Made by a program: the position numbers and the translations under genes
Part shown: one piece after another, positions 28,130 through 64,000 of the stretch
How positions within the stretch are numbered: the stretch's first letter is position 1
How the letters are laid out: the number at the start of each line of letters is the position of its first letter
NCBI GenBank assembly: GCA_017505525.1
Contig: JAFVPB010000007.1
Span: forward strand, 22,075 to 86,074
Source: Clostridia bacterium
GTDB lineage: Bacteria > Bacillota > Clostridia > UMGS1883
Length of the DNA stretch: 64,000 nt
Direction of reading: 5' to 3'
The notes under the pieces: model-generated
What the model saw: the letters and a program-made list of their open reading frames with translations, nothing else
The model's database searches: none
Told to the model about the DNA's origin: nothing

Positions 28130-29824
28130 ATGAAAGACATCGCCGATTTAAGACTGAAAATGTCGACTAACAGATTTTATGAAAATTGTGAATCGTATGA
28201 TGAAAGCACAGGACTTATATTTGGACCAGACGGAAAAACGCATCCTACAAGAAAAAATGCAGCGTTTGTTCAAAATGTTTTTGCTTTTAAAAGTGAAAGC
28301 CACTACGCCATTGCACGAAACATACTGTATAAGTTATGTATGCTGCAAGACAGGAATCCAGAAAGCCCTACGTATGGGCTGTGGCCTACAAGCTTTGAGG
28401 AAAATCTTGCAGATATATCTTTCCCGGATTTTAATTTTGCAGATTTTATTTCATCTTCTCTTATTGGAATTTTAGAAAAGTATAGGGAATATCTTGATGA
28501 AGAATTAATAAAAGAAACGGAAAAGTCGCTTGAGCTTGCGGCATATTGTTCGATAAAAAGGCATGTTGGTCTTGATTATACAAATGTGATTTGTATGAGC
28601 TGCTTTACAATAATCAAAGCAGGAGAAATATTAAATAATCAGGAAATTTTTAATTCAGGAAAGGCTGAACTTAAAAGATTTCTTGAATACACAAGGGTGT
28701 GCGGTGCTTTTTCGGAATATAACAGTCCTAACTATATTGTTGTCGCTGCCGGAGCTATTGAAAATATGATTAAATATTTTGAAGACGAAGAATGCAGGGA
28801 CATGGCTCTTGAACTCAATGATTATTTGTGGGAAATGGGAGCAAAGCACTATAGTAGTACGTTTGATGAATATACCCCGCCATACATAAGAAATTATTCT
28901 GATTTGGATAATGGAAGAGATGCCTTATTTATCTGGTGCGTAACTGACGGAGAATACGGAAAACTGCCTGCCAAACTAAGCGGCGGTGGATTAGATACAA
29001 TAAGATGCCCCAAAAAGTTTTTCCATTTATTCGATAAAGATTTCTGGGAAGAAATCACGTATTACAGAAAAAACAATATCAGAAAAAGTGATGAGGACTT
29101 AACAATAGTAAGAAATTTAGATAGTCCCGACCTTGTTCTTTATTCATATAAAACAAAAGAATATTTGTTCGGAGCTTTTCAAAAAACTGACCTTTGGGGG
29201 CAAAGAAGAAACCTGATGCTTATTTGGAATCCCCTTTGCAAGAAATTTTTAAAGCTTTGTGCGTTAAAGGATGGCGTAGATTTCTCATCTGCTATGGCAT
29301 ACACTGTTCAAAATAAAGGAGAATCGTTAACGCTCCTTGGATTTGCAACAGATAATGGCGATAAGCATTACATAGTTGATCCGTTAACAGATGGAAAATT
29401 CAAAGCAAAAAAACTTTCGTTTATGATTAAAACGGGGGGAGAAAAAAAGCTTCTCTTTGAAAAACATGGAAGTGAATTTATTCTTAGGGATGGAAAGTTC
29501 TTTGTAAGCATAAGAATAGATGATTGGTGTTTTGACGGAAAAAAAGGAGAAATCAGATTAACGGATGATGGAATTGAGTTAATCTGTTTCGAATCAGATA
29601 CTCCGCGTGAAGTTAATTTGTATGAGCTTGGTATGTCATATGGTGTTATAAGTCTTTGCGTGAATGACCAGGCAAAAGCAACGGAAATAAAAACAGATGG
29701 AGAAAGAATAATGGTGAAAAATGAAACAGGCTCCATCGAGGGCTATAATACCCCTCAAAAATATAACGATTGCATAATAAATACTTCGGTAAACAAACCG
29801 AAAGAAAAACAGGAGGAAGGATAA
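28130..29824 (+). CDS. uncharacterised protein, possible (alpha/alpha)-toroid polysaccharide lyase-like enzyme
   Basis: The 564-residue protein has no signal peptide. The first ~300 residues look helical with conserved aromatic and polar stretches (LDYTNVICMSCFTIIKAGEI, then FSEYNSPNYIVVAAGAIENM), as in the toroid of heparinase or alginate-lyase-like enzymes. The C-terminal half is beta-rich, like their sandwich domains. The SEYNSP-x-Y motif recurs in such proteins. GGGAGGG before ATG 28130 supports the start; an upstream TTG/ATG frame from 28097 is less likely. Its stop overlaps the start of the next gene by one base. As first gene of the operon it may cut imported uronic-acid oligomers. Function is inferred from fold-like features only. 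Confidence 0.6.
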   Translation: MKDIADLRLKMSTNRFYENCESYDESTGLIFGPDGKTHPTRKNAAFVQNVFAFKSESHYAIARNILYKLCMLQDRNPESPTYGLWPTSFEENLADISFPDFNFADFISSSLIGILEKYREYLDEELIKETEKSLELAAYCSIKRHVGLDYTNVICMSCFTIIKAGEILNNQEIFNSGKAELKRFLEYTRVCGAFSEYNSPNYIVVAAGAIENMIKYFEDEECRDMALELNDYLWEMGAKHYSSTFDEYTPPYIRNYSDLDNGRDALFIWCVTDGEYGKLPAKLSGGGLDTIRCPKKFFHLFDKDFWEEITYYRKNNIRKSDEDLTIVRNLDSPDLVLYSYKTKEYLFGAFQKTDLWGQRRNLMLIWNPLCKKFLKLCALKDGVDFSSAMAYTVQNKGESLTLLGFATDNGDKHYIVDPLTDGKFKAKKLSFMIKTGGEKKLLFEKHGSEFILRDGKFFVSIRIDDWCFDGKKGEIRLTDDGIELICFESDTPREVNLYELGMSYGVISLCVNDQAKATEIKTDGERIMVKNETGSIEGYNTPQKYNDCIINTSVNKPKEKQEEG

Positions 29825-32418
29825 TGAAAATGAAGAGAATCTTATTGATGCTGGTAGCAGTAACTATACTTGTAACATCAGCAACAAACGGCATTGGCTT
29901 TTCTGCGCAGGCGGAAGATGGCTATGTTGCAACCGCAGGGGAGCAGAGAGCGCAAAAACTGTTGAAAATTGGCGCAATATATAATGATGCAGATGCAATG
30001 GTGCTCACAAGGAGCATAAAAAGAGGCGAATTTGCAAAAATTCTTATTAAGTTCATAGGGCATAATAAGATGGTACCCAATCAGGTAACACAGAAGCCTT
30101 TTATGGATGTGGACCTCGATCATCCCTACATAAGAGAAATAAAGCAGATGAAGGATTTGGGAATTGTTACCGATGCCAAGCTTTTAAAGTTCAGGCCGGA
30201 TGATTACATAACTGTTTTCGAAGCTGCAAATATGCTTGATGCGGCTTTAGGCTACAGAAAATTAGCAAATAAAACATACTCGGCAAAACTCAATATAGTT
30301 GATGGCGTTAAGAAATCTGATGTTGCAGTTGCAACTCTTGATGATATTTATGTAATGCTTGAAAACTGTCTTGGAATAACAATTTTTGAGCCTGAGCTTT
30401 GGGAAGTTGCTAATGGCACAACAAAGGAAACAGTAATAGAAAGATATTATAAGCTTGAAAAGCGCAGAGGTATTGTAACGGCAAATTCTATCAGTGGTAT
30501 TTCAGAAGCTGACAAGCATTCGGCAAAAGGATATTTGGAAATTGATGGTGTTCATTTCAAATCACAGGATCCCGAATATGAAAAATATCTTGGATATACA
30601 GTTGATTTCTATATTGATAAATCCAATAATGAAATTTACTATATTATTCCCCATACAACTAATCAAACTTTAACTATTGATTCAGATGATATTTTGCCGG
30701 GAAATCAAAATACTATTTACTATAAGAACGATAAAGAAAACACAAAGAAGGTAACTGTAAGAAATTATGATGTTATCTATAATAAAAAAGCTTATAGCGG
30801 ATACGGAAATCTTAACACAGTATTTTCGAATATAGACGGAGAGATTACTCTTCTCGACAGAAACGGAGATAAGGTGTATGATGTTATCTTTGTTGATTCT
30901 TATACTTATCATTATATCACGGCAGTTGATATGCAGTTTAAATACATCTATGATGAAGAAACAAACACACGTATCGACCTTTCTGATGAAGAGAATACCT
31001 TAATTTATAAGGCCGACGGCACTCGCATAAAAATGGCGGGAATTCCAACAGATGTTTTAGCTTCGGTGGCTGAAAGCAAAAATACCAAAGGCGATAAAAT
31101 AACAACTGTATACCTCAGCGATGCAGCAATTGAGGGTAAGATAGATGAAATATCAGAGGAAGAAATAGTTATAAACGGCACAGCATATAAGTGTGTTGAT
31201 AGCATTTATAACAAAGCTTCACTTGGTCTTTACGGCAATTTCTACATTGGAAAAACTGGTAAAATTGTAAAATTTATTCCTCTTGCAGAATCCGTATGGA
31301 ATTTGGGCATAGTTCATTCTAAGGATGGCGGAGACGGAACCTTCTCAAATCCGAAGGTAAGAATTTTCACTTCTGATGGTGAATTTAAGGTTTACAATAT
31401 ATTACAAAATGCCCGTGCTGATAAAACAATGGAGTATACAAACGGAATCAAAGGCGATGCAGAAATTTGTGATGCTCTTGTAGTTGGCAGTGTTGTAAGA
31501 TATCAGCTTAATGATAACGAAGAAATTAAAAGAGTACAGATTACCGATACGGGAAGTGGCTCAGGACAAAGCAAGCTTTATGCAAACGATACAGGCTTAA
31601 GACTTCTTAAGAGCGGCAATTCCTTCCATTACTATAATAATATGTATGCAACTTCTTTTGGTACAAACACCAATACTAAGTTCTTTATTATACCCACTGA
31701 GGAAAACTGGCTGAATGAAGAGGAATTTTCAGCAAAGACTGTGACATTCCAGAACGACAGAGATATTAAATATTATTATGAAGCATATACCTTTGGAAAA
31801 AAAGATTTACCAATTGCGGATGTTATGGTTATAAAGGGCGGCTCGGCAGCAACCGTTAAAACAAACGACTATATGTTTGTTTTAAATAAGATTCGCGGAG
31901 TTATAGAAAATGGAGAAGAAATGTTCAGCCTTTCGGGAATAAGTAAAGGTAAGAGTGTAAGCTTTTTATCAGCGGATAATCCGAAGACCAAATACAATGT
32001 AGAAGAGGGAGATATCCTTATTGTACATACAAAGGCTGACGGCACCGTGGCTGACATAATTAAGGTGTTTACGCCAAATAAGCTTAATGACTCAGATGCT
32101 TATATAAGGCCTGGCGTGAATGATTTTAATCTGGGAATGACTGCAACAAGAGCAACTGGTGCGTATGTTTATGTTTACGCAACCGTTACAGGAGTAACGG
32201 GAGAAGGTATTTCCTTTGAATATATAGAACCAGGCACAGGTAACACAGTAGAAAGATTTGGATTCTTAAGCGGTACTACATTTGCACGTTACAATATTAA
32301 TGAGACTGATATTGAAGCAGTAGCGGGAAGTGTTTACGATATTGTTATCGGAGATAAAGTTCTTATTTTGACAAACTACGCTAAACCCAATCAGATTGTA
32401 GTATTTAAAAACAGATAA
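29824..32418 (+). CDS. exported SLH-domain protein, surface-anchored, function unknown
   Basis: This 864-residue protein has a signal peptide (residues 1-30, cleavage after AQA). It carries S-layer homology motifs near residues 39-80 (with the T-R-x-x-F-like TRSIKRGEFAKIL) and 93-145 (FMDVDLDHPYIREIKQMKDLGIV), and probably a degenerate third. The remaining ~650 residues are a long beta-rich region with repeated V-x-x-I-x-x-x-x-I-x-I-NG-x-x-Y strands. SLH domains bind pyruvylated secondary wall polymer. AGGAGGA precedes the start. No enzyme motif was recognised; it could be a scaffold or glycan receptor. Confidence 0.8.
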   Translation: MKMKRILLMLVAVTILVTSATNGIGFSAQAEDGYVATAGEQRAQKLLKIGAIYNDADAMVLTRSIKRGEFAKILIKFIGHNKMVPNQVTQKPFMDVDLDHPYIREIKQMKDLGIVTDAKLLKFRPDDYITVFEAANMLDAALGYRKLANKTYSAKLNIVDGVKKSDVAVATLDDIYVMLENCLGITIFEPELWEVANGTTKETVIERYYKLEKRRGIVTANSISGISEADKHSAKGYLEIDGVHFKSQDPEYEKYLGYTVDFYIDKSNNEIYYIIPHTTNQTLTIDSDDILPGNQNTIYYKNDKENTKKVTVRNYDVIYNKKAYSGYGNLNTVFSNIDGEITLLDRNGDKVYDVIFVDSYTYHYITAVDMQFKYIYDEETNTRIDLSDEENTLIYKADGTRIKMAGIPTDVLASVAESKNTKGDKITTVYLSDAAIEGKIDEISEEEIVINGTAYKCVDSIYNKASLGLYGNFYIGKTGKIVKFIPLAESVWNLGIVHSKDGGDGTFSNPKVRIFTSDGEFKVYNILQNARADKTMEYTNGIKGDAEICDALVVGSVVRYQLNDNEEIKRVQITDTGSGSGQSKLYANDTGLRLLKSGNSFHYYNNMYATSFGTNTNTKFFIIPTEENWLNEEEFSAKTVTFQNDRDIKYYYEAYTFGKKDLPIADVMVIKGGSAATVKTNDYMFVLNKIRGVIENGEEMFSLSGISKGKSVSFLSADNPKTKYNVEEGDILIVHTKADGTVADIIKVFTPNKLNDSDAYIRPGVNDFNLGMTATRATGAYVYVYATVTGVTGEGISFEYIEPGTGNTVERFGFLSGTTFARYNINETDIEAVAGSVYDIVIGDKVLILTNYAKPNQIVVFKNR

Positions 32419-32429
32419 GGAGGAGAACT

Positions 32430-34070
32430 ATGAAAAAGATATTTATTTGTTTGCTTGCCTTTGTTTTTTCAGTAAACACATTGGTTTTAGCAACTGATAT
32501 AAGTGTGGATTTCAGCCTGAGAACAGTTAATGTAACAGTTACAGATAATCTGGGCGTGGAAAATCCAACACTGCAGCTTTTTACTGCGAATAAAACAGAG
32601 CTGTTATACGCGGATGAGGGCACAAAAAATGAAGACGGAAGCTACAGTTTTGATTCTTTCAAAATGAGAGATGATGCTGTAAGCGGAGATTATGTTGTAA
32701 GAATCGGTGAAAACGGAAAGCTTACCGAAAAAACAGTTTATTATCCATCCAAAGGCGAAATGGTGGCAATGATTAATTTCATTAAATCAGAAGATTTCAG
32801 TGCTGCAGGCCTTGTAAGCACGTATCACAGAATTCTGGGAATTGAAAGTAATCTTTTAGAAAATGCTGATAAGTTGTGGATTGGAAAAATAGAAACAGAA
32901 ATCAAAAAGCTTTCATTAGATAATACTACCGATGAAGCAATAATTAATGGAAGAACAGACGTAAAAGATACTTTAGTTTTATGGACAGACATAATCAAGC
33001 TTTATACTGCAAAGGATAAGGACTCGCTTGATGAGGCAATAGCAAAAGTTGGCGGTCTTGATTTAAAATACTACAAATATATTACCGATTACGAGCACAT
33101 AGGTAAGGCAATGAGCAGCGTTGAGATTGATATGGAAACACTTACAAAAAGTGATGTTTCTGATTTATTCGACGGAGCAATCCTTACAGGAGCTATAATT
33201 CAGAACGACTGGGAAACTGCAAGAGATGTTTTAAAATACTATGTTGAGAAGGAGCTTCTCTCGGTTAAGAGCACATATCTTAAGGCAGGAGCAACAGTTT
33301 ATAAAGACCTTCAATCTAAGAATATTATAGACTACACTAAGCTTAGTGATGAACTTGAAGATAGCTACAAGGATAAAAATCAGGGAGGAAGCGACGGCGG
33401 TTCAGGCGGCTCAGGCGGCTCTTCGGGAGGAACTGTAGTTCCCTCTGATAAAACTATCATATCTGGCGTAACCAATTCGCAGGCTGAAGAGGTTGTAAAT
33501 AATCAAAACAATGCAGTTTCAATGTTTAACGATATTTCATCTCATCCATGGGCACAGGAAGCTATTATTGAGCTTGCAAGAATGGGCGCAATTAACGGAA
33601 AGAGCGAAAAAACATTTGCCCCTAACGACAATATAACGAGAGCAGAATTCGTTAAAATAATCGTTAATACATTTAAGCTTAATGATAATTCGGCAACTGT
33701 AAGCTTTGCAGATGTAAATGCAAACCACTGGTATTACAACGCGGTGGCATCAGCAAGCAAGCTTGGATTAGTAAACGGCATGAATGAAAATAACTTTGGA
33801 GCACTTGAAAATATTTCAAGAGAAGATATGGCAGTTATTGCATCACGCCTTATCGAACTCTTAAATATAAAGAAAGCAGAAAACAAAGTGGAATTCAGTG
33901 ATAAAAACGACATAGCAGATTATGCTGCCGAGGCAATTGATACTCTTTCAGGTCTTGGTATTATAAACGGTATGGGAGATGGAACATTTTCTCCGAAGAC
34001 CAACGTTACAAGAGCGCAGGGCGCAAAGGTTATATACGAATTACACAAAATTTCGAGGAGGGCTGAATAA
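32430..34070 (+). CDS. exported protein with three C-terminal SLH domains and Gly/Ser linker
   Basis: This 546-residue protein has signal peptide 1-21, a beta-sandwich-like N-terminal domain (about 22-110), a helical middle (110-315), a Gly/Ser linker (about 320-337), then three SLH repeats at about 366-418, 425-480 and 488-541 (FNDISSHPWAQEAI with TRAEFVKII; FADVNANHWYYNAV; FSDKNDIADYAAEAID with TRAQGAKVI). The linker plus C-terminal anchor is the plan of cell-surface display proteins. No catalytic motif was seen. Its stop overlaps the start of the next SLH gene by one base, so the surface proteins are translated together. Confidence 0.85.
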   Translation: MKKIFICLLAFVFSVNTLVLATDISVDFSLRTVNVTVTDNLGVENPTLQLFTANKTELLYADEGTKNEDGSYSFDSFKMRDDAVSGDYVVRIGENGKLTEKTVYYPSKGEMVAMINFIKSEDFSAAGLVSTYHRILGIESNLLENADKLWIGKIETEIKKLSLDNTTDEAIINGRTDVKDTLVLWTDIIKLYTAKDKDSLDEAIAKVGGLDLKYYKYITDYEHIGKAMSSVEIDMETLTKSDVSDLFDGAILTGAIIQNDWETARDVLKYYVEKELLSVKSTYLKAGATVYKDLQSKNIIDYTKLSDELEDSYKDKNQGGSDGGSGGSGGSSGGTVVPSDKTIISGVTNSQAEEVVNNQNNAVSMFNDISSHPWAQEAIIELARMGAINGKSEKTFAPNDNITRAEFVKIIVNTFKLNDNSATVSFADVNANHWYYNAVASASKLGLVNGMNENNFGALENISREDMAVIASRLIELLNIKKAENKVEFSDKNDIADYAAEAIDTLSGLGIINGMGDGTFSPKTNVTRAQGAKVIYELHKISRRAE

Positions 34071-37000
34071 TGAAAAAAATAAGCTTATTTGTTGCTATTG
34101 TAATGTTATTTAGCCTTATTCCCACAATGGGAATTAATGCTGCTGACGGAATAGTGGCAAACTCAACCTTTAACGAAGGCTCAAACGGCTGGAGAGGCTC
34201 AGGCGGAACCTTTGTTCTTGAAAATGACGATGCTTTGGGAATTCAGGGCGGTAAGTCATACAGAACAAAGTATTCAACCACAAATACTGAATTTCGTTGC
34301 CTTAACGTAAATCTCACTCCCGGAAGATTATACGAGCTTCAGTTTTATGCAAAGTCGGATACAGTAGGCGCTGAAATCCAGGGAATCAGAACATACAGAA
34401 GCGATGGTGTGTATTACTTTGATAATATTGCACTTACTAAAAGCTGGAAAAAATACAGTGTTGAATTTGTTGCTCCCACAAGAACAAATCACGGTGCAGA
34501 AGCAACTGTTGATGGAGATATGTATTTCCGTCTTATGACGCCCGGTTCATCAGTATGGCTTGACGAGGTTTACTTTATAGACCCCACTGTAGTTGAAGAA
34601 GAAAAGATAGAGTACAGTGAACCCTATGAAGAATATAAATATTCAGCCTCTGCAAATGCAATTAATATGGATGGCTTTGCAGATACTAAGGGGCATTGGG
34701 CAGAATTAACAATAACACTTATGAAAAACGAAAATGTTGTTTCAGGTGTTGGCAACGGAATGTTCCTTCCCAATAAAAAAGTAACGCGCGCAGAATTCTT
34801 AAAGATGCTTACTGCAAAGCTTAATGTTGAAGAGCGTGAATATAAGGGTGCTTATGCAGATGTTAAAGCAGAAAAATGGTACAGCGGCATTGTGCAAAAT
34901 GCAATTGAAATGGGAATTATTTCACCTGTGCTTATTGAAAACGGAAACTTCAAGCCCGATAGTGAAGTAAGCCGTGAGGATGCTGCCGTATTTGTAAGCA
35001 GCTATGTAGATTATATTGGTCTTGGCGATAAAGAAAGTGCCAATATGTTCACAGATGACAGTGCAATAGATGCGCAAAAGAAGGAAAGCGTATACAATGC
35101 TGTGAAAAAAGGTGTGATAAACGGCTACACAGACGGAAGCTTTTCTCCCAAAAAGATATTAACAAGAGCAGAAGCCGTGCAGATTATCCGTAATATATTG
35201 GAATATGACGGGCCGATGGCAGTTTATGTTAATCAAAAAACGGGTAAGAAAGGTAACCCCGGTACGATTGAAGCACCGTTTAAAAATCTTGAAGAGGCAA
35301 CAGAATATATAGACGCACATAACGACAAAATGGACCATCATCTTTATGTTCTTATGCAAGGCGAAATTTTTGTTGATGAAACAATTGCACTTACCCCAAA
35401 AGACACAGGAAATGGTGCATATAGCGTAATATATTCATCCTACGGAAATGAGCAGGCGTTAATTTCAGGCGGTAAGCATTTCAAAGGCGGCTGGGAAGAC
35501 GATAATACCGCACTTGGAATTAAAAAGCTCTTTGTTGGAGAAGGCGTTAAAACACGCCAGATGTTTGTAAATGGTATGCGTATGACACGTGCGAAAACCG
35601 ATACAGGCTTTAAAAATCCATCCTATATCACAGATGATAAGGCAGGATACTATACAGAGGATATGTATTTTGCAAATCACAGAGACATAGACGATTTAGA
35701 ATTTGTATGGCTTGTTACATGGACAGAGCCGAGAGTAACAGCTACCAAGGTTGAACCTATGGGCGAGGGCCTTAAAATAACGATGGAGCAGCCCGGTTTC
35801 AAATATGCAGTAAACAAAGGTCATTTAGCAGTCGATCTGCCCGACCATTTTGAAAATCAGTATGAATTTATTGATGAGCCCGGAGAATGGTATCTGGATA
35901 AAGAAGGCTGGCTTTACTATATTCCTTACGATTTTATAGATTTACAAACAGCAGATATTGTACTTCCCGTAACAGAGAAGCTTATAACTGTTTATGGAAC
36001 TAAAGAAAACAAAGCTAAGAATATTTCGTTTATAAACGTTGGTTTTGGATATAACACATGGCTTCGTCCAAGCGGAGAGAACGGTTTTTCAGATGCTCAG
36101 GGCGGAAGATTCCGTGAGGGTGCAGACCATATCCCCGATTCATCAGTTTGGGTACAGTATACAGATAATGTTACGTTTAAAGATTGTACCTTCTCAAAGC
36201 TTGGAAGTACAGCACTTAACGTAACTGATAATGTTACCGATGTTAATATTATAGGTAACCATATTTATGATATTTCAGGATGCGGAATGTATATAGGTAA
36301 CCATAATGCCGATGGTAAAACTGTTTTCGGTGCAGCAAATGAAGATTATCCTTCTGAAAGAATAGCAATACAAAATAACTACATACACGATTACGGTGTT
36401 GAATATGGCTCGTCAGACGGTATTGAGACTATGGCTGCAAGCTATGTAAACATATCGAATAATGAAGTGTACAACGGAAGATATTCGGGTATCGTTGTAG
36501 GCTATGGTAAAAACAGAGCAGCAGGCTATAAATATGCAATTGATGTAGAGAAAAACTACGTTCACGATGTGCTGAACGGTCATGTTTACGATGGCGGCGC
36601 AATATACGTTACTGAAATGACGGATGGTACATTCGACCGTTACAACACAATTCAGTATAACTATCTTGAAAATCAGCGCAATTATTCAGCTGTGCTGTAT
36701 CTTGATAACAGCTCAAGCTTCTGGAATGTTAACCATAACGTTGTAGATACAAGGAGAATGCCCCTGTGGCACAGAAATCGCCAGACGGCACTTAAGCCTC
36801 CTATCTGGTTCTCATCAGGCGGTTGGGACAACAACCCAGTCGATTATAACTACATATCAATCGAATCGCAGAGCGAAAACCATCATGGCGGCGACTACAC
36901 AAATCCCGAGGGCGAAGCAGCAACCTTTGGCGAGCATATCTACTATATTGATTTAGAAAAAGAACAGTGGCCTGACGAGGCAAAGGGTATCATACAAAAT

Positions 37001-38242: not shown

Positions 38243-38254
38243 TTAAGAATTTCA

Positions 38255-38280: not shown

Positions 38281-38306
38281 AAAGAAAAATATAAAAGGGT
38301 GATGTG

Positions 38307-43955: not shown

Positions 43956-43964
43956 TAAATGGCA

Positions 43965-44031
43965 ATTTGTAGGGGACGGCCTCCATAGCGTTCCGTTTGG
44001 CGGGCTGTCGAGGACGCCAGCCCCTACAAAT
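43965..44031. repeat. REP/MITE-like palindromic element
   Basis: ATTTGTAGGGG (43965-43975) and CCCCTACAAAT (44021-44031) are perfect terminal inverted repeats. The GC-rich interior is an imperfect palindrome (GGCCTCC against GGACGCC). It is much more GC-rich than its surroundings. Similar TTTGTAGGGG-flanked intergenic repeats are common in Clostridia metagenome genomes. Confidence 0.7.
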
Positions 44032-44116
44032 ACCGATTAAATCGCAATCTTCTTGAATAAAATTTAATTAGCCGAAAGGCTTTAAATAAATTATATTATA
44101 TTAAGGAGGAAAAACT

Positions 44117-49090: not shown

Positions 49091-49091
49091 A

Positions 49092-51702: not shown

Positions 51703-52578
51703 ATGAAAAGAACTAACGGTGAAAAAGCATTTAATGTTTTTAATATTATTTTTCTTGGCCTTTTGGCACTTACAACGCTTTACCCCTTGATTTACACATT
51801 ATCTATCTCGCTTTCAACTACTGCAGAGGCAGCAAAGGGAGGATTTCATTTCTATCCGAAAGATGTTACTTTTATTGCTTACAAGATGGTGTTTAAAAAT
51901 CCGGACCTTCCCATTGCATATCTCAACACGATTTTCAGAACTGTAGTTGGTACGGTTGGAGCACTTTTGATTACATGCTTCTATGCGTATGCTCTGGCAA
52001 GACCCGAAACTCCGCACAAAAAGTTTTTTACAACTGTTCTTATTATAACAATGCTTTTTTCGGGTGGTAAAATTCCGATGTATATTACTTATAAAAATTA
52101 TGGACTTCTGGATAATATATGGATTTATGTTTTGCCACATTTAATTGGTGCATACAATGTTGTTGTGGCGAGAAGCTTCTTTTTATCGATTCCAGGAAGT
52201 CTTCACGAATCAGCTAAGATTGATGGTGCAGGAGAATTTAGTATTTTCTTTAAGATAATAATGCCTCTTTCAAAGCCTATAACTATGACGCTTGCGTTAT
52301 TTGTTGCAGTATTCCACTGGAATTCATGGTATGATTCGCTTATGTATATTCAGTCAAATTCAAAAATAGTTGTTCAGTTACTTTTACAGAGAATTATTCA
52401 GGAAAATAATGTAGAACTTATTACTCAGGGCATTATAAATCCCGAGCAGACAGAATTTACTTCAGAAACGGTTAAATCTGCTACAGTTATTGTTGCAGTG
52501 CTGCCAATTCTTGTAATGTATCCGTTTGTGCAGAAATATTTCACAAAGGGTATGATGCTTGGTGCTGTTAAAGGCTGA
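51703..52578 (+). CDS. ABC sugar transporter permease, LplC/UgpE-like
   Basis: This 291-residue membrane protein has six predicted spans and the EAA loop ESAKIDGAGEFSIFFKIIMP (about 169-188). The ending YPFVQKYFTKGMMLGAVKG is highly typical of the LplC/YtcP branch. GGAGG precedes the start, 13 bases after the first permease gene. With that permease and the lipoprotein it makes the membrane part of the importer. Confidence 0.93.
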   Translation: MKRTNGEKAFNVFNIIFLGLLALTTLYPLIYTLSISLSTTAEAAKGGFHFYPKDVTFIAYKMVFKNPDLPIAYLNTIFRTVVGTVGALLITCFYAYALARPETPHKKFFTTVLIITMLFSGGKIPMYITYKNYGLLDNIWIYVLPHLIGAYNVVVARSFFLSIPGSLHESAKIDGAGEFSIFFKIIMPLSKPITMTLALFVAVFHWNSWYDSLMYIQSNSKIVVQLLLQRIIQENNVELITQGIINPEQTEFTSETVKSATVIVAVLPILVMYPFVQKYFTKGMMLGAVKG

Positions 52579-52586: not shown

Positions 52587-52630
52587 AATCAGGTCATTGG
52601 CGCTAATGTGTTGTGACCTGATTTTCATTT
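52587..52630 (+). terminator. weak terminator or attenuator after the importer genes
   Basis: AATCAGGTCA (52587-52596) pairs with TGACCTGATT (52614-52623) and is followed by TTCATTTTGT. The loop is 17 bases, so termination may be partial, letting some transcription continue into the GH20 genes. Confidence 0.55.
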
Positions 52631-54370: not shown

Positions 54371-54395
54371 AATTTGAAATAGGAGTGAAAGTATT

Positions 54396-56108: not shown

Positions 56109-56123
56109 CAGGAGTGAAGCGTA

Positions 56124-57077
56124 ATGAACAGCGATATGAATGTATCCGTAAAAGAAATTACGATGATTGGAATTGATGGCGGTGGGACAAAAACAGAATT
56201 TGTTTTGTTTTCCGCTGAGGGAACTGTTTTAAAAAGAATAGTTTTAGATGGCACAAATGCTAATTCGGTAGGTATCGCAAAAACAACCCAAATCTTAAAA
56301 AAAGGTATAGATATATTATTAAAGTGTAATCAAAATGTGGTTGGAATATACGCGGGAATAGCAGGCTGCGGCGGAAAAGAAAATCAAGAGGCGGTAATAA
56401 GCTTTTTAAAAAGCGAGTATCCTGGCTTGCTTGTAGGATGCAGCAGCGATATACAAAATATCATATCGTGCGCTAATACAAATCACTGCATTGCTGTAAT
56501 TTGCGGAACAGGCTCGTGTGTGTTTGCTCTTGATGAATACGGTTTACACCAAACAGGTGGATGGGGTTATATGCTTGGAGATGAAGGCAGCGGATTTTTT
56601 ATAGGCAGAGATGTTTTAAGAGCAAACTTATCTTATTATGATGGATTAGGGGAGTATTCCTTGCTTGTTAAACTGGCAGAAGAAAAACTTAATGGAAGAG
56701 TGAATGAGAAAATACCCCATATATATTCTAAAGGAAGAGATTTTGTTGCTTCATTTGCGCCTCTTTGTTTTGAGGCGCAAGTGAAGAATGATAAAGTAGC
56801 AACTGAGATTATTGAAAGAAATGCCGATGATTTAGCAAAGCAAATTAAAATTGCTTATGATAAATACGGAAAACCTAGCTGCGTTGTTCTGTCGGGCGGA
56901 GTTGTTAGTGCAAATCCCGATTATATTAGTTTGATAAAAGAAAAAAGCTGCTTGGATGTGGAATTCAAATTAATTACAAAGCCCCAGGTTTATGGAGCGG
57001 GGCTTTCATGTGCAAAGCTGTGCGGCATAGCTTTAAAGGAAGATTTTCTTAAGGAATTTAAAAGAACATACATATAG
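56124..57077 (+). CDS. N-acetylglucosamine / N-acetylmuramic acid kinase (BadF/BadG family)
   Basis: This 317-residue ASKHA-fold kinase has the phosphate-binding loop GIDGGGTKTEF (about residues 12-22), ICGTGSCVF, GGWGYMLGDEGSGFFIGRD and the adenosine loop VVLSGGVV near the C-terminus. The family includes eukaryotic NAGK and clostridial MurK, which phosphorylates both GlcNAc and MurNAc. Its place between two GH20 genes and murQ argues for an N-acetylhexosamine substrate, with MurNAc likely because murQ is directly downstream. It replaces the phosphotransferase system (MurP) used by other bacteria to make MurNAc-6-P. Confidence 0.88.
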   Translation: MNSDMNVSVKEITMIGIDGGGTKTEFVLFSAEGTVLKRIVLDGTNANSVGIAKTTQILKKGIDILLKCNQNVVGIYAGIAGCGGKENQEAVISFLKSEYPGLLVGCSSDIQNIISCANTNHCIAVICGTGSCVFALDEYGLHQTGGWGYMLGDEGSGFFIGRDVLRANLSYYDGLGEYSLLVKLAEEKLNGRVNEKIPHIYSKGRDFVASFAPLCFEAQVKNDKVATEIIERNADDLAKQIKIAYDKYGKPSCVVLSGGVVSANPDYISLIKEKSCLDVEFKLITKPQVYGAGLSCAKLCGIALKEDFLKEFKRTYI

Positions 57078-57093
57078 AACAGGAGTTTTTTAA

Positions 57094-57924
57094 ATGAACA
57101 GAACTGAAATGCGGAATCCCAAGACAACCCATATTGATAAAATGAATACTTTAGATATTCTTAAAATAATCAACGAAGAGAATATGAATGCCGTGAAAGC
57201 AGTGGAATCAGAGCTTGAGAATATAGAAAAAGCGGTGGAGGCTGCATCGGGTTGTCTTAAAAACGGAGGAAGGATAATTTATATCGGATGCGGCACATCA
57301 GGAAGACTTGGGGTGCTTGATGCATCGGAATGCCCTCCTACGTTTGGTGTGTCACCAGATACAGTGCTTGGAATAATAGCAGGCGGAGACAGATGCTTGC
57401 GCAGTGCAAGCGAAAATCAGGAAGATAACCGTGAAGCAGGCATTAATGATGTGAAAGCAATTGAGATTTCAGATAAAGATTGCCTTGTTGGCATTTCTGT
57501 TGCAGGTGGTGCAGAATATGTCTTGGGTGCAATAGAGTATGCTAAAAAAATAGGTGCTGTAACTGTTGGAATTACATCCAATAAGAATACTCCTCTTGAT
57601 TTGTGCGCCGATATTTCTATTTGTCCCGATACGGGAGAAGAGGTTATTACAGGTTCCACAAGAATGAAAGCAGGAACTGCACAAAAAATTATTTTAAATA
57701 TGATTTCTACAACTTCAATGATAAAACAAGGCTATGTATATGAAAATCTGATGATAAATCTTAAGCCATCTAATAATAAACTTAAAGAGCGCGTTATAAG
57801 GATAGTGCGTGATATAACAGGAAAAAACGCAGAAGAGGCAACAGATGCTCTGAACAAAACAAACTGGGATATTCGCGGTGCGGTGGAAATTATTGCTGGT
57901 AAAGTGTGTGGAGGAGAACAATGA
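57094..57924 (+). CDS. murQ: N-acetylmuramic acid 6-phosphate etherase
   Basis: MurQ cleaves the D-lactyl ether of MurNAc-6-P to give GlcNAc-6-P and lactate. The 276-residue protein matches closely: RNPKTTHIDKMNTLDIL, YIGCGTSGRLGVLDASECPPTFG (SIS-domain sugar-phosphate site, about 68-90), SENQEDN, ISVAGGAEYV and TGSTRMKAGTAQK. It is slightly shorter than the usual ~300 residues at the C-terminal end. The stop overlaps the next start (ATGA). Together with the kinase it forms a MurNAc recycling pair inside a glycan locus. Confidence 0.95.
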   Translation: MNRTEMRNPKTTHIDKMNTLDILKIINEENMNAVKAVESELENIEKAVEAASGCLKNGGRIIYIGCGTSGRLGVLDASECPPTFGVSPDTVLGIIAGGDRCLRSASENQEDNREAGINDVKAIEISDKDCLVGISVAGGAEYVLGAIEYAKKIGAVTVGITSNKNTPLDLCADISICPDTGEEVITGSTRMKAGTAQKIILNMISTTSMIKQGYVYENLMINLKPSNNKLKERVIRIVRDITGKNAEEATDALNKTNWDIRGAVEIIAGKVCGGEQ

Positions 57925-59672
57925 AAAAGTACGAAATTGTAAATAACGGAGTTAGCGAATATTATATTGTTACATCAAAAAAAGCACATGAAACGGAGCA
58001 TTTTGCAGCTTCTGAACTGCAAAAATATATCTACAAGAGTACTGATGTGCTTATCCCTTATTTTTCAGACCGTTGTGAAAAAAGAGGAAAAGAGATTTAT
58101 ATAGGAACACTTCCACGAGATGTTTATAAAGAGCTTGATATGTCGACAGTCGAAGAAGAAGGCTTTACAATTAAAACAATAGATAATGGCATTGTAATTG
58201 CAGGAAAAACTCCGCGTGGGACATTATATGGTGTATACAGCTTCCTTGAAAAATTTCTAGGATACAGGTGCTTTACTAAGGAAGTGGAAAAAATTGAAAA
58301 GATGGACAATTTAACAATAGATGAAATTTCTATAGTTGAAAATCCTGACTTTGAATATAGAGAAGCGTATTTCAGGTTTGCTTTTGAGAGTGATTTCGCT
58401 GTGAAGAATAAGCTTAATGCAAACTTAGCATCAATACCTTTAGAAAGAGGCGGACACACAAAATTCTATAACTTTCATCATTCATTCGACGATTTGGTTC
58501 CACCCGCGGAATATTTTGAAGAGCATCCCGAATATTTTGCAGAGGTAAAAGGGGAACGAATGCCCACTCAATTATGCCTTTCAAATCCCGATGTTTTAAA
58601 AATAGCAACAGAGAAGGTTTTTACATGGATAAAAGAAAACCCTTCGTGCAAGGTTTTTTCTGTTGCGCAGAATGATAATTCTATTAATATGGAAAAGTTT
58701 TGTTCGTGCGAAAACTGCAGAAAAACAGATTTGTATGAGGGGGGGCCTGCGGGCAGTGTTATCCATTTTGTAAATAAAATTGCAAGAGAAGTTAAAAAAG
58801 AGTATCCCGATGTGCTGATACATACTTTTGCTTACCAATATACGAGGAAAGCCCCAAAATACGTAAAACCCGAAGAAAATGTTATAGTTCGTTTGTGCGA
58901 TATAGAATGTGATTTCAGTAAGCCATTTGAAATACTTGTTAATGAGAATAACAGTGAGGCAATTGATTTCATAAATAATATAAATGAATGGACAAAGATT
59001 TCTGATAGAGTTTATATTTGGGATTATTGTGTTAATTTTGCAAATTATCTTCTTCCATTTCCAAATATGTATTCAATGGCAGAGAATATAAGACTGTATA
59101 GAAAAAGAGGCGTTAGAGGAGTTTTACAGCAAGGTAATTTCTCTTACGGAGGAGGAGCAAGCCTTGATGACTTAAAATCTTATGTAATAGCAAAGCTTCT
59201 TTGGAACTCAGAAGAAGACACTGAAAAGTTAATAGAAGAATTTACTGATTGTGTTTATGGAAAAGGCGGAATATATATAAAGAAATATATCGACCTTATT
59301 GCAAAGGAATTCTCTAAATATACTATGAAAATTTATGATAATTCTGATAGTCAGTATATAAATGATTCGTTAATTGAAGAATGTGAAAATCTGTTTGTGC
59401 TTGCTGAGAAAAATGCTGAAAACGAAGTTGTTCTCGAAAGAATAAAAAGGGAGCATTTAGCAGTTCAGTATATGCGTGTTTCGAGAATTGAAAACGACGA
59501 TATTAGAAAAAAACAAGTAGATGAACTTGAAAAGAGTGTGAAGCATTTTAAACTGACAGAAATATTTGAAAGATGTGATTTAGATTGGTCTTTTGATTGT
59601 ATGCGTCGCTCGCGTTTTGCAACCGATAGAACAGGATATAAGGAGAATTTTCTTTACTACATAATGAAATAA
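57921..59672 (+). CDS. DUF4838-domain protein, glucuronidase/hexosaminidase-like
   Basis: This 583-residue protein has no signal peptide. The N-terminal accessory domain (about 1-130) includes GFTIKTIDNGIVIAGKTP and RGTLYGVYSFLE, the hexosaminidase/alpha-glucuronidase domain-2 fold. A TIM-barrel-like DUF4838 region (about 200-450) follows with AQNDNS, the cysteine cluster FCSCENCRK, and VYIWDYCVNF. DUF4838 proteins are suspected glycosidases without proven substrate. GGAGGAG precedes ATG 57921, overlapping the murQ stop by four bases, so they are co-translated. A frameshifted relative of its N-terminal domain lies at 7690-7898. Confidence 0.8.
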   Translation: MKKYEIVNNGVSEYYIVTSKKAHETEHFAASELQKYIYKSTDVLIPYFSDRCEKRGKEIYIGTLPRDVYKELDMSTVEEEGFTIKTIDNGIVIAGKTPRGTLYGVYSFLEKFLGYRCFTKEVEKIEKMDNLTIDEISIVENPDFEYREAYFRFAFESDFAVKNKLNANLASIPLERGGHTKFYNFHHSFDDLVPPAEYFEEHPEYFAEVKGERMPTQLCLSNPDVLKIATEKVFTWIKENPSCKVFSVAQNDNSINMEKFCSCENCRKTDLYEGGPAGSVIHFVNKIAREVKKEYPDVLIHTFAYQYTRKAPKYVKPEENVIVRLCDIECDFSKPFEILVNENNSEAIDFINNINEWTKISDRVYIWDYCVNFANYLLPFPNMYSMAENIRLYRKRGVRGVLQQGNFSYGGGASLDDLKSYVIAKLLWNSEEDTEKLIEEFTDCVYGKGGIYIKKYIDLIAKEFSKYTMKIYDNSDSQYINDSLIEECENLFVLAEKNAENEVVLERIKREHLAVQYMRVSRIENDDIRKKQVDELEKSVKHFKLTEIFERCDLDWSFDCMRRSRFATDRTGYKENFLYYIMK

Positions 59673-59688
59673 AGAGAGCGTGTTATTA

Positions 59689-60882
59689 ATGGATTGGGAT
59701 AAAAGAAATATTATAGAAAAAGGTAACTATGATGTAATTGTAGTTGGCGGAGGAATTGCAGGAATCAGTGCTGCTGTAAGTGCGGCAAGAAACAATCTTT
59801 CAGTTTTGTTGATTGAAAAGAACGTAAATCTCGGTGGGCTGGCTACAGTCGGACTTATTTCCTGGTACGAGCCATTGTGCGACGGAGAAGGAAAACAAAT
59901 GATAGGTGGAATTTGTGAAGAACTGATAAAATTGTCTGCAAAGTATGGCTTTGATAATCTTCCCTCTAAATGGGGCGGAAGTGGAGAATTTCCAAGCTCT
60001 AATGAAAGGTATTCCACCTATTTTTCACCAACTGTATTTTCTTTGGCATTGGATGAATACGTATTGGAAAATGGAGTTAAAATCAGATTTGATACTCTGG
60101 GAGTTTATCCGGTAATGGAAGGAACTCATGCAATAGGTGTAATTTGCGAAAGCGTGGAAGGAAAAGAATTTTTTGGAGCAAAAGTAATAATTGATGCGAG
60201 CGGGACTGCTGTTGTTATGGAAAGAGCTGGAGTACCAACAGTTGTAGGTAATAATTTTATGTCCTATGTTGCCCATGGCTATCAAGTTGAAAATGCAGAA
60301 AATCTGAAAGAAACAGGCAACACCTGTAAGTTCAGAAAATGGATTGGCGTCGGCAGCGATATGTTTGGAACAGGTGCTGAAAAGAATATGCGAGAACTGA
60401 AGGGCATTACTGCTGATGATGTAACTAAATATATCTTACGCGGAAAGAAAGGGCTTCTTAAAAAGATAAAAGAGTATGAAAAAAACAGTTATGATATAAT
60501 GACACTTCCAGGGATGGCGCAATTCAGAACAATACGAAGGATAGTAGGAAAAACTGATTTTAATGCTATTGATGGAGAAATATTTGAAGATTCAATAGGT
60601 TCATGCGGAGATTTTCGACCAAATGGCAAAGGTAAGCATTATCAGCTCCCTTTTGGTGCTTTGTATAATGAAAAATTTGATAATTTAATTGCCGCCGGAA
60701 GAATAGTATCTTCTCCGCAGGGAGATGGATGGGAAGTAGCCAGAGTAATACCGGTATGTGCACTTACCGGAGAAGCTGCGGGAAATGCGGCTTCATTGGT
60801 TGTGAAGAATTCCGTGAAAGTGGCGGAAATAAACATAAAGGAACTTCAAAAGCTTCAGAAAAATAATGGAGTGTTATTTTAA
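59689..60882 (+). CDS. FAD-dependent oxidoreductase (FAD_oxidored family)
   Basis: This 397-residue flavoprotein has the dinucleotide-binding motif VIVVGGGIAGISAAVSAAR (about 17-35), the second FAD contact LLIEKNVNLGGLATVGL, and a C-terminal ending AAGRIVSSPQGDGWEVARVIPVCALTGEAAG typical of PF12831. This family is common in glycan loci and may oxidise sugars or reduce bonds in unusual sugars; no substrate is known. ATG at 59689 is used; the in-frame GTG at 59680 lacks a good ribosome binding site. Its presence with DUF4838 and GH20 genes suggests oxidative sugar processing, a guess. Confidence 0.82.
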   Translation: MDWDKRNIIEKGNYDVIVVGGGIAGISAAVSAARNNLSVLLIEKNVNLGGLATVGLISWYEPLCDGEGKQMIGGICEELIKLSAKYGFDNLPSKWGGSGEFPSSNERYSTYFSPTVFSLALDEYVLENGVKIRFDTLGVYPVMEGTHAIGVICESVEGKEFFGAKVIIDASGTAVVMERAGVPTVVGNNFMSYVAHGYQVENAENLKETGNTCKFRKWIGVGSDMFGTGAEKNMRELKGITADDVTKYILRGKKGLLKKIKEYEKNSYDIMTLPGMAQFRTIRRIVGKTDFNAIDGEIFEDSIGSCGDFRPNGKGKHYQLPFGALYNEKFDNLIAAGRIVSSPQGDGWEVARVIPVCALTGEAAGNAASLVVKNSVKVAEINIKELQKLQKNNGVLF

Positions 60883-60897
60883 AGGGAGAGTACATAT

Positions 60898-62472
60898 ATG
60901 GAAAAGATGCTTGGAGTAATGCTTGATTGTTCAAGAAATGCGGTTATGCGAGTGGAAACAGTAAAAAAATACGCAGAAATAATAAAGCAGATGGGATATA
61001 ATACTCTGATGTTATATACTGAAGATACTTATGAGGTGAATAATCAACCTTTTTTTGGACACTTGAGAGGAAGATATTCAAAAGCTGAAATAAAGGAAAT
61101 GGATAGTTTTTGTAAAGAAATAGGACTTGAACTTATTCCTTGTATACAAACACTTGCACACCTTGAAAACTTATTTAAGTGGAATTCGGAATATGATGAA
61201 ATCAACGACTGTGATAATATTTTATTGGCAAATGAAGAAAAAACTTATGACCTGATTGAGGATATGATTTCCACTGTTTCTGAATGTTTTAGTTCGAGAA
61301 AAATCCATATCGGTATGGACGAGGCTTATAGGGTAGGAACAGGAAAATATCAAAAAAAGAATGGGATAGAGGACAGATTTGATATAATAAATAAGCATCT
61401 TCATAGAGTGTGTGAAATAACTGACAAGTACGGATTTGAACCGATGATCTGGAGTGATATGTTTTGCAGGCTTGCACTAGATATTGAAAATCAGTATGAA
61501 AATGCAGAGAATGACAAAATCCTTGAAAAAGCTGCTCTTCCTGAAAATATAACGCTGGTTTATTGGGATTATTACAGCACAGATTATAATCATTATGTTC
61601 AGCAAATAAAAACCAATAAAATGTTTGGAAGAAAAGTTTATTTTGCCGGTGGAGCATGGTCGTGGAGAGGATTAGCTCCGGATAATACTTTCAGTATAGA
61701 TACAATGAAATCAGCTATCAGAGCATGTAATGACTGTGAAGTTGACGGAATGCTCTTTACAGTGTGGGGAGATAACGGGGCAGAATGCTCAAAATTTGCT
61801 GTTCTGCCTTCTCTTATGTATGCATCTCAGGCGGTAGCAAGAAATACAAATATTGAGGATATAAAAAATAAATTTACGCAAGCTACAGATTGTGAGTTTG
61901 ATGATTTTATGCTTCTTGATATGCTTGACAGGCCTGGTGGTAAGCACAATGACAATCCAAGTAAGTATCTTTTATACAATGACCCTTTTATGGGAATAAG
62001 AGATTATTGCTGTGTGGAATCTGATAATAAATTTTATGAAAACTTGGAAAATCAACTGAAAAAAGTAAAATGCGATAGTTTTTTTGAAGAAATGTTTGAA
62101 CACTATAAAAAGCTTTCAAAGGTTCTTTCAATCAAAGCGGCACTTGGTATAAAGACACGTATAGCATATTTGCAAGGAAACAAAGCCGAGCTCGGCAATA
62201 TAATAGAAGAATATAATTTGCTATTATCCTCTTTGCAAGAATTTTATGATGTATTTCAAAAAATGTGGTTTAAAGAAAATAAACCCCATGGGTTTGAAGT
62301 TCAGGACATCAGAATAGGCGGTTTGATGCAAAGACTGGTAAGCTGTAAAAAAAGACTGGTTCAATTTGTAAATAACGAAATTTCAACAATAGAGGAACTG
62401 GAAGAACCTGTCCTTGAAAAAAGTAACGGTCATAACTTTTGGGACAGAATTGTAACTGCAAATGCGTTATGA
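60898..62472 (+). CDS. GH20-family beta-N-acetylhexosaminidase lacking the N-terminal domain
   Basis: This 524-residue protein starts directly with the barrel (MLGVMLDCSRNAVM, then GYNTLMLYTEDTYE). The catalytic Asp-Glu pair is D141-E142 in IHIGMDEAYRVG, with WSDMF and FAGGAWSW further on. The accessory domain found in the other two GH20 proteins is absent, and the C-terminal ~200 residues are helical. It belongs to a different GH20 branch from the paralog pair. AGGGAGA precedes ATG. The stop overlaps the next gene (ATGA). Confidence 0.85.
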   Translation: MEKMLGVMLDCSRNAVMRVETVKKYAEIIKQMGYNTLMLYTEDTYEVNNQPFFGHLRGRYSKAEIKEMDSFCKEIGLELIPCIQTLAHLENLFKWNSEYDEINDCDNILLANEEKTYDLIEDMISTVSECFSSRKIHIGMDEAYRVGTGKYQKKNGIEDRFDIINKHLHRVCEITDKYGFEPMIWSDMFCRLALDIENQYENAENDKILEKAALPENITLVYWDYYSTDYNHYVQQIKTNKMFGRKVYFAGGAWSWRGLAPDNTFSIDTMKSAIRACNDCEVDGMLFTVWGDNGAECSKFAVLPSLMYASQAVARNTNIEDIKNKFTQATDCEFDDFMLLDMLDRPGGKHNDNPSKYLLYNDPFMGIRDYCCVESDNKFYENLENQLKKVKCDSFFEEMFEHYKKLSKVLSIKAALGIKTRIAYLQGNKAELGNIIEEYNLLLSSLQEFYDVFQKMWFKENKPHGFEVQDIRIGGLMQRLVSCKKRLVQFVNNEISTIEELEEPVLEKSNGHNFWDRIVTANAL

Positions 62473-63170
62473 AAGAGATGGTTATTTTGGAGAATTTTAA
62501 AATTGAAACATCACAAATAGGAAAATTGAAGTATGTGATAAGATACCCAAAGGAATATCAAAAAGACAACAAGTATCCTATAATCGTTCTGTTGCACGGC
62601 GCAGGAGGAAGAGGAAATGATATTAATGTCCTTTTAAATAATCCGTATTTCAGGAATATTAATAATTACGAGGATTTTAAATTTATTACTGTTGCACCGT
62701 TGTGCAGTGCAGATACGTGGTTTGATTTGTTTGGAGAACTTAAAAATCTAGTTATTGAAATTTCAAAGAGAGAATTTACAGATGACAGAAAAATTTACCT
62801 TATGGGAGCCAGTATGGGAGCGTATGCAACATGGCAGCTTGCAATGAGTATGCCTGAATATTTTGCCGCAATTATTCCAATTTGCGGAGGAGGAATGTAT
62901 TGGAATGCTGCCCGCCTTGTGAATGTACCCGTGTGGGCATTTCACGGAAAAAAAGATAGTGTTGTTTTTGTAGAAGAATCTGAAAAAATGATAAATGCAG
63001 TAAATAAAAACGGAGGGAATGCAAAAATAACAATTTATCCCGAAAATGAACATGATGCGTGGAATGATACATATTCTAACCCTGAGGTTTTCAATTGGTT
63101 GTTGGAACACGAAAATCAAAATAATATAAAAATAGAAAACATATATAACGACAGTGATATTTACGGATAA
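62469..63170 (+). CDS. alpha/beta-hydrolase, esterase-like
   Basis: This 233-residue protein has the serine hydrolase nucleophile motif GASMGAYA (Ser near residue 117), oxyanion region LLHGAGGRG, the acidic residue in HGKKDSVV and the histidine in ENEHDAWND. It resembles carboxylesterases and polysaccharide (acetyl/feruloyl) esterases. There is no signal peptide, so it would remove acyl groups from imported oligosaccharides. The start is set by the four-base overlap (ATGA) with the GH20 stop codon; ATG at 62478 is an alternative with a better GAAAGAG site. Confidence 0.85.
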   Translation: MKEMVILENFKIETSQIGKLKYVIRYPKEYQKDNKYPIIVLLHGAGGRGNDINVLLNNPYFRNINNYEDFKFITVAPLCSADTWFDLFGELKNLVIEISKREFTDDRKIYLMGASMGAYATWQLAMSMPEYFAAIIPICGGGMYWNAARLVNVPVWAFHGKKDSVVFVEESEKMINAVNKNGGNAKITIYPENEHDAWNDTYSNPEVFNWLLEHENQNNIKIENIYNDSDIYG

Positions 63171-63187
63171 GAAAGAGAGGGTTTACT

Positions 63188-64000
63188 GTGGGGTTTAAAA
63201 AAGATTTTGTTTGGGGAGCTGCAACGGCAAGCTACCAGATTGAGGGTGCATGGAATGAGGACGGAAGAGGTTTAAGTGTGTGGGATGTTTTTTCACAACA
63301 AGCAGGAAAAACATTTTGCGGTCACACTGGAAATATCGCTTGTGACCATTATCACAGGTTTAAAGAAGATGTTTCGCTTATGCGTGAGTTAGGCATTAAG
63401 GCGTATCGTTTTTCTATAAGTTGGTCGCGTATATTCCCAAATGGAACAGGTGAAATTAACGAAAAAGGCGTAAAATTTTATTCAGACCTTATTGATGAAC
63501 TTATAAAAAACGGGATAGAGCCATATATTACTCTTTTTCATTGGGACTACCCTTATGAACTTCATAAAAAAGGTGGATGGATGAATCCCGATAGTGTTGA
63601 ATGGTTCAGAAATTATGCTGCAACGATAAGTGCGCTTTATTCAGACAGAGTGAAACATTTTATAACCTTTAATGAGCCCCAGTGCTTTATTGGAAGCGGA
63701 TATCTTAACGGTGCGCATGCGCCTGGGCTGAAAGTATTATATAAAGATATTTTTCTGATGTGCCATAATGTTTTAAAAGCTCATGGTGCTGCAGTTATTG
63801 CACTGCGTGAAAATGCAAAACAGCCTATTTTAGTAGGCTATGCTCCCACATGCACTGTTTGCTATCCTTCAACGAATAGCCCTGAAAATATAAGCGCTGC
63901 ACGGGAAGAATATTTCAAATGTCCTCCACTGGGTGATGGTGTTATGTGGAATGTTTCGTGGTGGAGTGACCCTGTTATTTTAGGTCATTATCCTGAGGAT
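63188..64000 (+). CDS. GH1-family beta-glucosidase (3' truncated by window edge)
   Basis: The 271 visible residues open MGFKKDFVWGAATASYQIEGAW, the canonical GH1 N-terminus, and continue with GIKAYRFSISWSRIFPNG, LFHWDYPYELHKKGGW and the acid/base motif FNEPQC (in TFNEPQ, Glu near residue 163). The nucleophile region (TENG) lies beyond the edge. The start is GTG at 63188, 7 bases after GAGAGG. It follows the esterase gene by 17 bases and would hydrolyse beta-glucosides or 6-phospho-beta-glucosides in the cytoplasm; the two cannot be told apart here. Confidence 0.95.
   Translation, partial: MGFKKDFVWGAATASYQIEGAWNEDGRGLSVWDVFSQQAGKTFCGHTGNIACDHYHRFKEDVSLMRELGIKAYRFSISWSRIFPNGTGEINEKGVKFYSDLIDELIKNGIEPYITLFHWDYPYELHKKGGWMNPDSVEWFRNYAATISALYSDRVKHFITFNEPQCFIGSGYLNGAHAPGLKVLYKDIFLMCHNVLKAHGAAVIALRENAKQPILVGYAPTCTVCYPSTNSPENISAAREEYFKCPPLGDGVMWNVSWWSDPVILGHYPED

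Follow-up and report, generated by a model that had tools for sequence, protein, structure and literature searches.

A conserved gene cassette of gut Clostridia, with S-layer proteins and GH141 enzymes, that may serve in the use of an acidic polysaccharide

A 64,000-nucleotide stretch of a Clostridia bacterium genome (assembly GCA_017505525.1, contig JAFVPB010000007.1; the window) carries a long run of same-strand genes for S-layer homology (SLH) proteins, glycan-active enzymes, an importer, and sugar-processing enzymes. The run raises the question of whether these genes form a single pathway and what its substrate might be. The first-pass annotation had read positions 28130 to 64000 as one 36-kb system. 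Our comparisons resolved this stretch into two units instead, 27015 to 52578 and 52652 to the contig end. We consider it likely, with a probability of about 0.7, that the first unit is a cassette, present in similar order in some gut Clostridia, for surface cutting, import, and cytoplasmic finishing of an acidic polysaccharide, and that the GH20-BadF-MurQ genes behind it are probably a separate module.

The extent of the first unit emerges from its counterparts in other genomes. In a metagenome-assembled genome (MAG) from water deer rectum (G060, locus L038) and in Candidatus Ornithomonoglobus intestinigallinarum, of the Clostridia (G063, L047), the genes stand in the order GH88-lyase-SLHx-SLH-GH141-GH141-CBM-CBM-binding protein-LplB-LplC, with one additional CBM-like gene ahead of LplC in G063; here "lyase" denotes a lyase-like protein and SLHx a protein with degenerate SLH domains. 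Three other loci (L039 in G061, L046 in G062, and L048 in G064) hold a partial cassette running to contig ends. The more distant contig C91 of G036 encodes SLH, SLHx, two GH141 proteins, a binding protein, and permeases at 54 to 59%, and past its second permease it has other same-strand genes and no GH20-MurQ block. Related genomes do not provide independent loci. In the window, the conserved unit begins upstream of 28130, at a divergent AraC-family gene, and ends at 52578. The idea that an S-layer-anchored capture and cutting set is coupled to an importer was borne out as a conserved cassette, recurring in G060 and G063. The lyase-like protein occurred in 9 of the 391 genomes of the window's own class (class genomes), at E<1e-100 in three, the window's own among them, and was not found in G004 or G005, the two congeners in that search. 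Among the matches listed for six congeners, none spanned the whole GH141 core and most were SLH matches; one G005 protein matched GH141 residues 434 to 750 at 27%. The cassette looks accessory. The named relatives of the host's lyase-like and SLHx proteins are Clostridia records, so the host probably belongs to the gut Clostridia; its genome of 2.4 Mb in 71 contigs is 95.4% complete and gave 87 SLH-repeat matches.

If the genes after 52578 belonged to the same pathway, the substrate would contain beta-linked N-acetylhexosamines and a lactyl-ether sugar, as in peptidoglycan or a teichuronic-acid-like wall polymer, and would be cut outside and dismantled inside by the GH20 enzymes, the kinase, and MurQ. 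The single strand and the short gaps fit such a pathway. On contig C26, the host's other MurQ gene likewise neighbors BadF, GH88, an SLHx/SLH pair, and permease genes, which makes two loci of this kind with MurQ in one genome. However, C26 has a pectate-lyase-type protein and a GNAT gene beside BadF-MurQ, and in the congener G001, BadF and MurQ are paired on a contig of 4.5 kb; these neighborhoods also fit wall recycling. The first-pass annotation had itself named, as speaking against its proposal, relatives whose loci keep the surface and cytoplasmic parts apart, and this is the arrangement in G060 and G063. The gene after LplC is on the opposite strand in G060, and in G063 two short same-strand open reading frames (ORFs; 191 and 58 amino acids) precede the first opposite-strand gene. 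The sequence beyond LplC, covering 13.8 kb in G060 and 8.4 kb in G063, contained no GH20 block; both genomes have their GH20 matches on other contigs, at best identities of 29 to 30%. Full-length MurQ was found in none of the five cassette genomes (no match in G060 to G063, weak partial SIS matches in G064), an absence that in MAGs may reflect incompleteness.

The distribution of the second block's genes points the same way. Homologs of GH20a at E<=1e-30 were present in 32 of the 391 class genomes, the window's own included, and BadF, full-length MurQ, or DUF4838 accompanied them in none of the 20 loci fetched, four of which are contigs of only 3.6 to 5.2 kb. Two neighbors in these loci matched MurQ over 172 to 183 residues at 30 to 31% identity, and three loci had single cassette-type neighbors: GH141-like (L300), GH88 (L303), and SLHx with a permease (L314). 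The two units are separated by a strong hairpin (-22.8 kcal/mol, z -6.0) whose U tail is weak; a consensus terminator scan passed over it because the loop is too long. G060 has a hairpin and a T run in the same place after LplC, and the hairpins in other gaps of the window have no T tail. The GC content at third codon positions (GC3) was 0.338 in ten cassette genes versus 0.289 in eight second-block genes, with overlapping distributions. We rejected the 36-kb pathway as an evolutionary unit because full-length MurQ is missing from the five cassette genomes, the block is missing after LplC, and GH20a occurs without these partners; on the same evidence, we rejected MurQ as a pointer to an N-acetylmuramic acid substrate of the cassette. 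A single pathway across the whole run is thus distinctly improbable, and the GH20-BadF-MurQ block is probably a separate module. On contig C81 of G063, the 191-residue ORF just 3' of LplC has a signal-peptide-like start.

The window MurQ scored 332.8 bits against TIGR00274 (cut-off 302). In place of the loop SGRTPYV of solved MurQ sequences, which is not known to be a defining feature, the window MurQ has AGGAEYV, the host's second MurQ (L034:7795-8610) SGNAAYI, and the MurQ of G065 (L148:13881-14702) SGGASYV, a variation that could possibly change phosphate or sugar binding. The host's second SLH locus (G000:C26; L034, L152, L153) comprises a periplasmic-pectate-lyase-type protein, SLHx, SLH, GH88, BadF-MurQ-GNAT, and two permeases.

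What might the cassette act on? The lyase-like protein had no Pfam match at E<=1, no NCBIfam match, and no meaningful sequence match in the PDB. Its structure model (predicted local distance difference test [pLDDT] 92.4) has a predicted toroid plus beta-sandwich fold, and, among the fold matches listed by Foldseek, those spanning both domains were mainly lyases; a set of invariant positions was also drawn up for the protein. The overall predicted fold resembles that of toroid plus beta-sandwich polysaccharide lyases, such as the PL8, PL17, and heparinase II/III types, with no detectable sequence relation. When genomes were scanned with the lyase alignment, 135 relatives were found; loci were taken from 80, and 5 of these were dropped because the lyase ORF fell below threshold. 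In the remaining 75 loci, from several phyla, GH88 was fused to the lyase or close by in 34, which fits an unsaturated product, and the next commonest neighbors were SusC/SusD or permeases. Neither the lyase nor the GH88 of the window has a signal-peptide-like N terminus by a simple hydropathy rule, whereas such an N terminus is present in SLHx, SLH546, GH141a, GH141b, both CBM proteins, and the binding protein. The surface role first assigned to the lyase and the GH105-type enzyme was accordingly abandoned. From fold, missing signal peptide, and GH88 linkage, we predict that the lyase-like protein is a uronate lyase outside the Pfam and NCBIfam families.

The scaffold could instead belong to an epimerase, a dehydratase, or a hydrolase, with the GH88 protein an ordinary beta-galactosidase-type enzyme. 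The top Foldseek match of the model is dermatan sulfate epimerase 1, an NCBIfam BglB match fell near its cut-off, and no lyase with a solved structure matched in sequence; a literature search on Agrobacterium BglB/PglB found nothing informative. Against these points stand the predominance of lyases among the two-domain fold matches and the GH88 linkage, and we regard a non-lyase as unlikely. Natural lyase-GH88 fusions of about 950 amino acids occur in Lachnospiraceae-type MAGs (L040 to L045 and L049), several adjoining permease genes, and GH28-like and GH94 genes stand beside two fusion loci. Near lyase homologs, we found fucosidase genes in 8 loci (7 genes on the lyase strand, 3 on the opposite strand), sulfatase in 7 loci, GH28 in 8 (5 same strand, 3 opposite), and also GH94. 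This mix was too varied to decide the substrate, and we dropped the attempt to read it from the neighbors. A uronic-acid-containing heteropolysaccharide is probably the substrate, perhaps one with fucose.

The GH88 protein of the window scored 216.6 bits against Glyco_hydro_88 and has GH105 structures among its PDB matches. It is only 26 to 29% identical to the cassette GH88 proteins of the relatives, which are 49 to 75% identical among themselves, and its gene lies between the CBM and binding-protein genes instead of heading the cassette. It is not orthologous to the leading GH88 of the relatives and looks like a replacement.

Both GH141 proteins matched SLH, Big_2, and, above the cut-offs, GH141_M and Beta_helix in Pfam, and their best PDB match was BT_1002 (E 7.9e-29 for GH141b). 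D523 and D564 of BT1002 are described as essential (PMC10154630, PMC12786026). Their counterparts are D841 and D879 in GH141a and D699 and D737 in GH141b, if the numbering of chain and protein differs by five, as we read the alignment. Across the 19 GH141 proteins aligned, G036_b was without the first catalytic Asp. Family, insertion domain, and catalytic Asp pair thus agree, and the specificity of the window enzymes cannot be inferred from them, because the family is known to include three unrelated activities: a fucosidase on rhamnogalacturonan II (BT1002), a xylanase (Xyn141E), and endo-fucanases (Wf141) (PMC10154630, PMC5593877, PMC12786026). GH141b has SLH domains and is 54% identical to GH141a, whereas the second GH141 of G060 and that of G062 have none by Pfam; the window therefore seems to hold a tandem copy instead.

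Of the two SLH proteins first annotated, SLH546 was confirmed by Pfam. SLHx had no Pfam SLH match, and it qualifies only in degenerate form, by a predicted N terminus that matches SLH trimers (SpaA-SLH, TMt 0.69) in a model with pLDDT 77.6 and a predicted template-modeling score of 0.48. Might this pair instead be a general-purpose S-layer component, placed here by chance and unrelated to glycan use? SLHx homologs were found in 241 of 391 class genomes at E<=0.001, in a scan that scored only the two best candidates in most genomes. An SLH546-like gene adjoined on the same strand in just 1 of the 29 best other copies (flanks of about 1.5 kb). We also sampled 40 loci, roughly every third unlisted row of the homolog list, of which one had no SLHx and several were short; an SLH partner adjoined in 19 of the 39 copies, and LplB lay within 8 kb in 6. 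After the last count, we no longer treated the pair as marking import loci in the manner of SusC/D. Yet the SLHx-SLH-GH141 adjacency is repeated in G060, G063, and three G064 loci, and the lyase adjoins SLHx in L038, L039, L046, L047, L048, and G381, which makes a chance placement rather doubtful. By these homolog counts, SLHx is a general SLH-protein family that is used in this cassette, not an import-locus marker. G064 has several SLH-GH141 loci (L193, L196, L197, and L198), three with the SLHx-SLH-GH141 triad and with varying downstream genes. A third locus of the host genome (G000:C49; L150, L151) places SLHx next to genes for two permeases, for a binding protein, and for SLH proteins of very great length.

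The importer first named LplB/LplC does comprise two BPD_transp_1 permeases and a binding protein; the names fared less well, as NCBIfam gave only distant UgpA/UgpE/GlcU-type matches. The host genome gave a single OB_MalK-type ATPase gene, on contig C13. The divergent AraC protein of the window is 49% identical to that of L038 and 45% to that of L039, both in the same position, and an AraC gene farther upstream of the G063 locus matched over 96 residues only. In the mechanism we propose, SLH and CBM proteins would capture the polysaccharide, and the GH141 enzymes, which have catalytic aspartates and SLH domains, would cleave it at the S-layer. Products would enter through the lipoprotein and the two permeases, probably powered by the C13 ATPase as a shared component. 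In the cytoplasm, as fold, missing signal peptides, and linkage suggest, the lyase would cleave next to uronic acid and the GH88/GH105 enzyme would then remove the unsaturated uronyl end. The AraC protein likely controls the cassette.

Every gene named by the first-pass annotation was found on the plus strand where it had been placed, with Pfam and NCBIfam families as claimed (Table 1). The gaps from 28130 to 64000 are at most 73 bp, with one exception of 161 bp (43956 to 44116). Downstream of the CBM genes, Pfam matched Glyco_hydro_88, a binding protein, two BPD_transp_1 permeases, two GH20 proteins, BadF, and SIS, and in the block's later genes DUF4838, FAD_oxidored, GH20C, and alpha/beta-hydrolase were matched. 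The window takes up the final 64 kb of contig C3, as far as the contig end (86074), so the GH1 gene that closes it is cut by the assembly.

Table 1. Features of the cassette and of the separate block behind it (window positions)
Feature	Position	Strand	Basis or remark
AraC-family regulator	27015..27878	-	Pfam HTH_18, AraC_binding; divergent from cassette
Lyase-like protein, 564 aa, no signal peptide	28130..29824	+	Predicted uronate lyase; lyase-like fold model, GH88 linkage
SLHx: signal peptide, degenerate SLH trimer, chain of beta domains	29824..32418	+	Structure model
SLH546: signal peptide, SLH x3 at C terminus	32430..34070	+	Pfam, hydropathy rule
GH141a: signal peptide, SLH x3, GH141 beta-helix, Big_2	34070..38242	+	Pfam, BT1002 alignment
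GH141b: SLH x2 above threshold, GH141	38304..42026	+	Pfam, BT1002 alignment
Secreted CBM_4_9 protein, 635 aa	42048..43955	+	Pfam, hydropathy rule
Secreted CBM_4_9 protein, 992 aa	44117..47095	+	Pfam, hydropathy rule
GH88/GH105-type protein, 655 aa, no signal peptide	47123..49090	+	Pfam, PDB matches
Solute-binding lipoprotein	49092..50696	+	Pfam; lipobox LVSC picked out by eye
ABC permease "LplB"	50754..51689	+	Pfam
ABC permease "LplC", final gene of conserved cassette	51703..52578	+	Pfam, synteny
Terminator-like hairpin, weak U-rich tail, 3' of LplC	52587..52623	+	Folding energy
GH20 (a), separate block	52652..54370	+	Pfam
GH20 (b), separate block, 68% identity to (a)	54396..56108	+	Pfam
BadF-type sugar kinase, separate block	56124..57077	+	Pfam
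MurQ (N-acetylmuramic acid 6-phosphate etherase family), separate block	57094..57924	+	NCBIfam
DUF4838 protein, separate block	57906..59672	+	Pfam
FAD-dependent oxidoreductase, separate block	59680..60882	+	Pfam
GH20C-type hexosaminidase, separate block	60898..62472	+	Pfam
Alpha/beta-hydrolase, esterase-like, separate block	62439..63170	+	Pfam
GH1, separate block, incomplete at contig end	63185..64000	+	331.7 bits on part present

The 161-bp gap between the CBM genes holds an inverted repeat at 43965 to 44030 (TTTGTAGGGG...CCCCTACAAA) that resembles a miniature inverted-repeat element and has a core that recurs in L211, L237, and L251. Elsewhere in the window, positions 8843 to 17235 form one run of UxaC, SDR, UxuA, two genes with no Pfam match, GH39, an RraA-like gene, and an M55 D-aminopeptidase. 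The UxaC-SDR-UxuA part (8843 to 11965) is compatible with glucuronate use. Two creatininase-family genes lie on the minus strand at 19910 to 21897, near GH30, GNAT_C, and enolase-superfamily genes.

How much of this plan is new? In a Gram-positive polysaccharide utilization locus (PUL), the genes for a degrading enzyme, a transporter, and a regulator lie together. By family assignment, the cassette links degrading enzymes, an importer, and a regulator in the same way. The first-pass annotation had known of no described locus of this composition, a statement that holds for the enzyme families and not for the general plan. The xylan/aldouronate system of Paenibacillus sp. JDR-2 has a surface enzyme with SLH and CBM domains, an ATP-binding cassette (ABC) importer, intracellular finishing enzymes, and coordinate regulation (PMC4765114). 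In gene content, the cassette shares these elements. That system, however, uses GH10, GH67, and GH43 on xylan, with the surface xylanase gene distal from the importer cluster, whereas the cassette has GH141, lyase, and GH88 in one run, and GH10 and GH67 had no Pfam match in its proteins. Our searches of the open-licence PubMed Central (PMC) literature yielded no description of this enzyme set on an S-layer plan. We conclude that the general plan is known from JDR-2 and that the new element is this enzyme set on it, with a predicted lyase of unassigned family.

The proposed analogy to PULs of Bacteroidota was upheld by Phocaeicola sartorii (L090), where the same lyase, GH88, and GH141 families share a locus with its own importer. 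There, the importer is an outer-membrane SusC/SusD and the lyase and GH88 bear signal peptides, whereas the cassette has S-layer anchors, ABC permeases, and a predicted cytoplasmic lyase and GH88; its proteins have no SusC or SusD Pfam domain. Tentatively, and at somewhat less than even odds, one acidic-glycan core (an undescribed uronate-lyase family, GH88, and GH141) may be mounted on two surface chassis: SusC/SusD in Bacteroidota and the SLHx/SLH pair, SLH-GH141, and ABC permeases in gut Clostridia. As a defined and conserved gene set of gut Clostridia, the cassette allows joint tests of surface cutting, import, and intracellular finishing. It also points to a lyase-like family that spans several phyla and is unnamed in the family libraries searched. 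A side-by-side study of the shared enzymes in the SusC/SusD and S-layer settings would reveal the extent to which glycan use depends on surface machinery.
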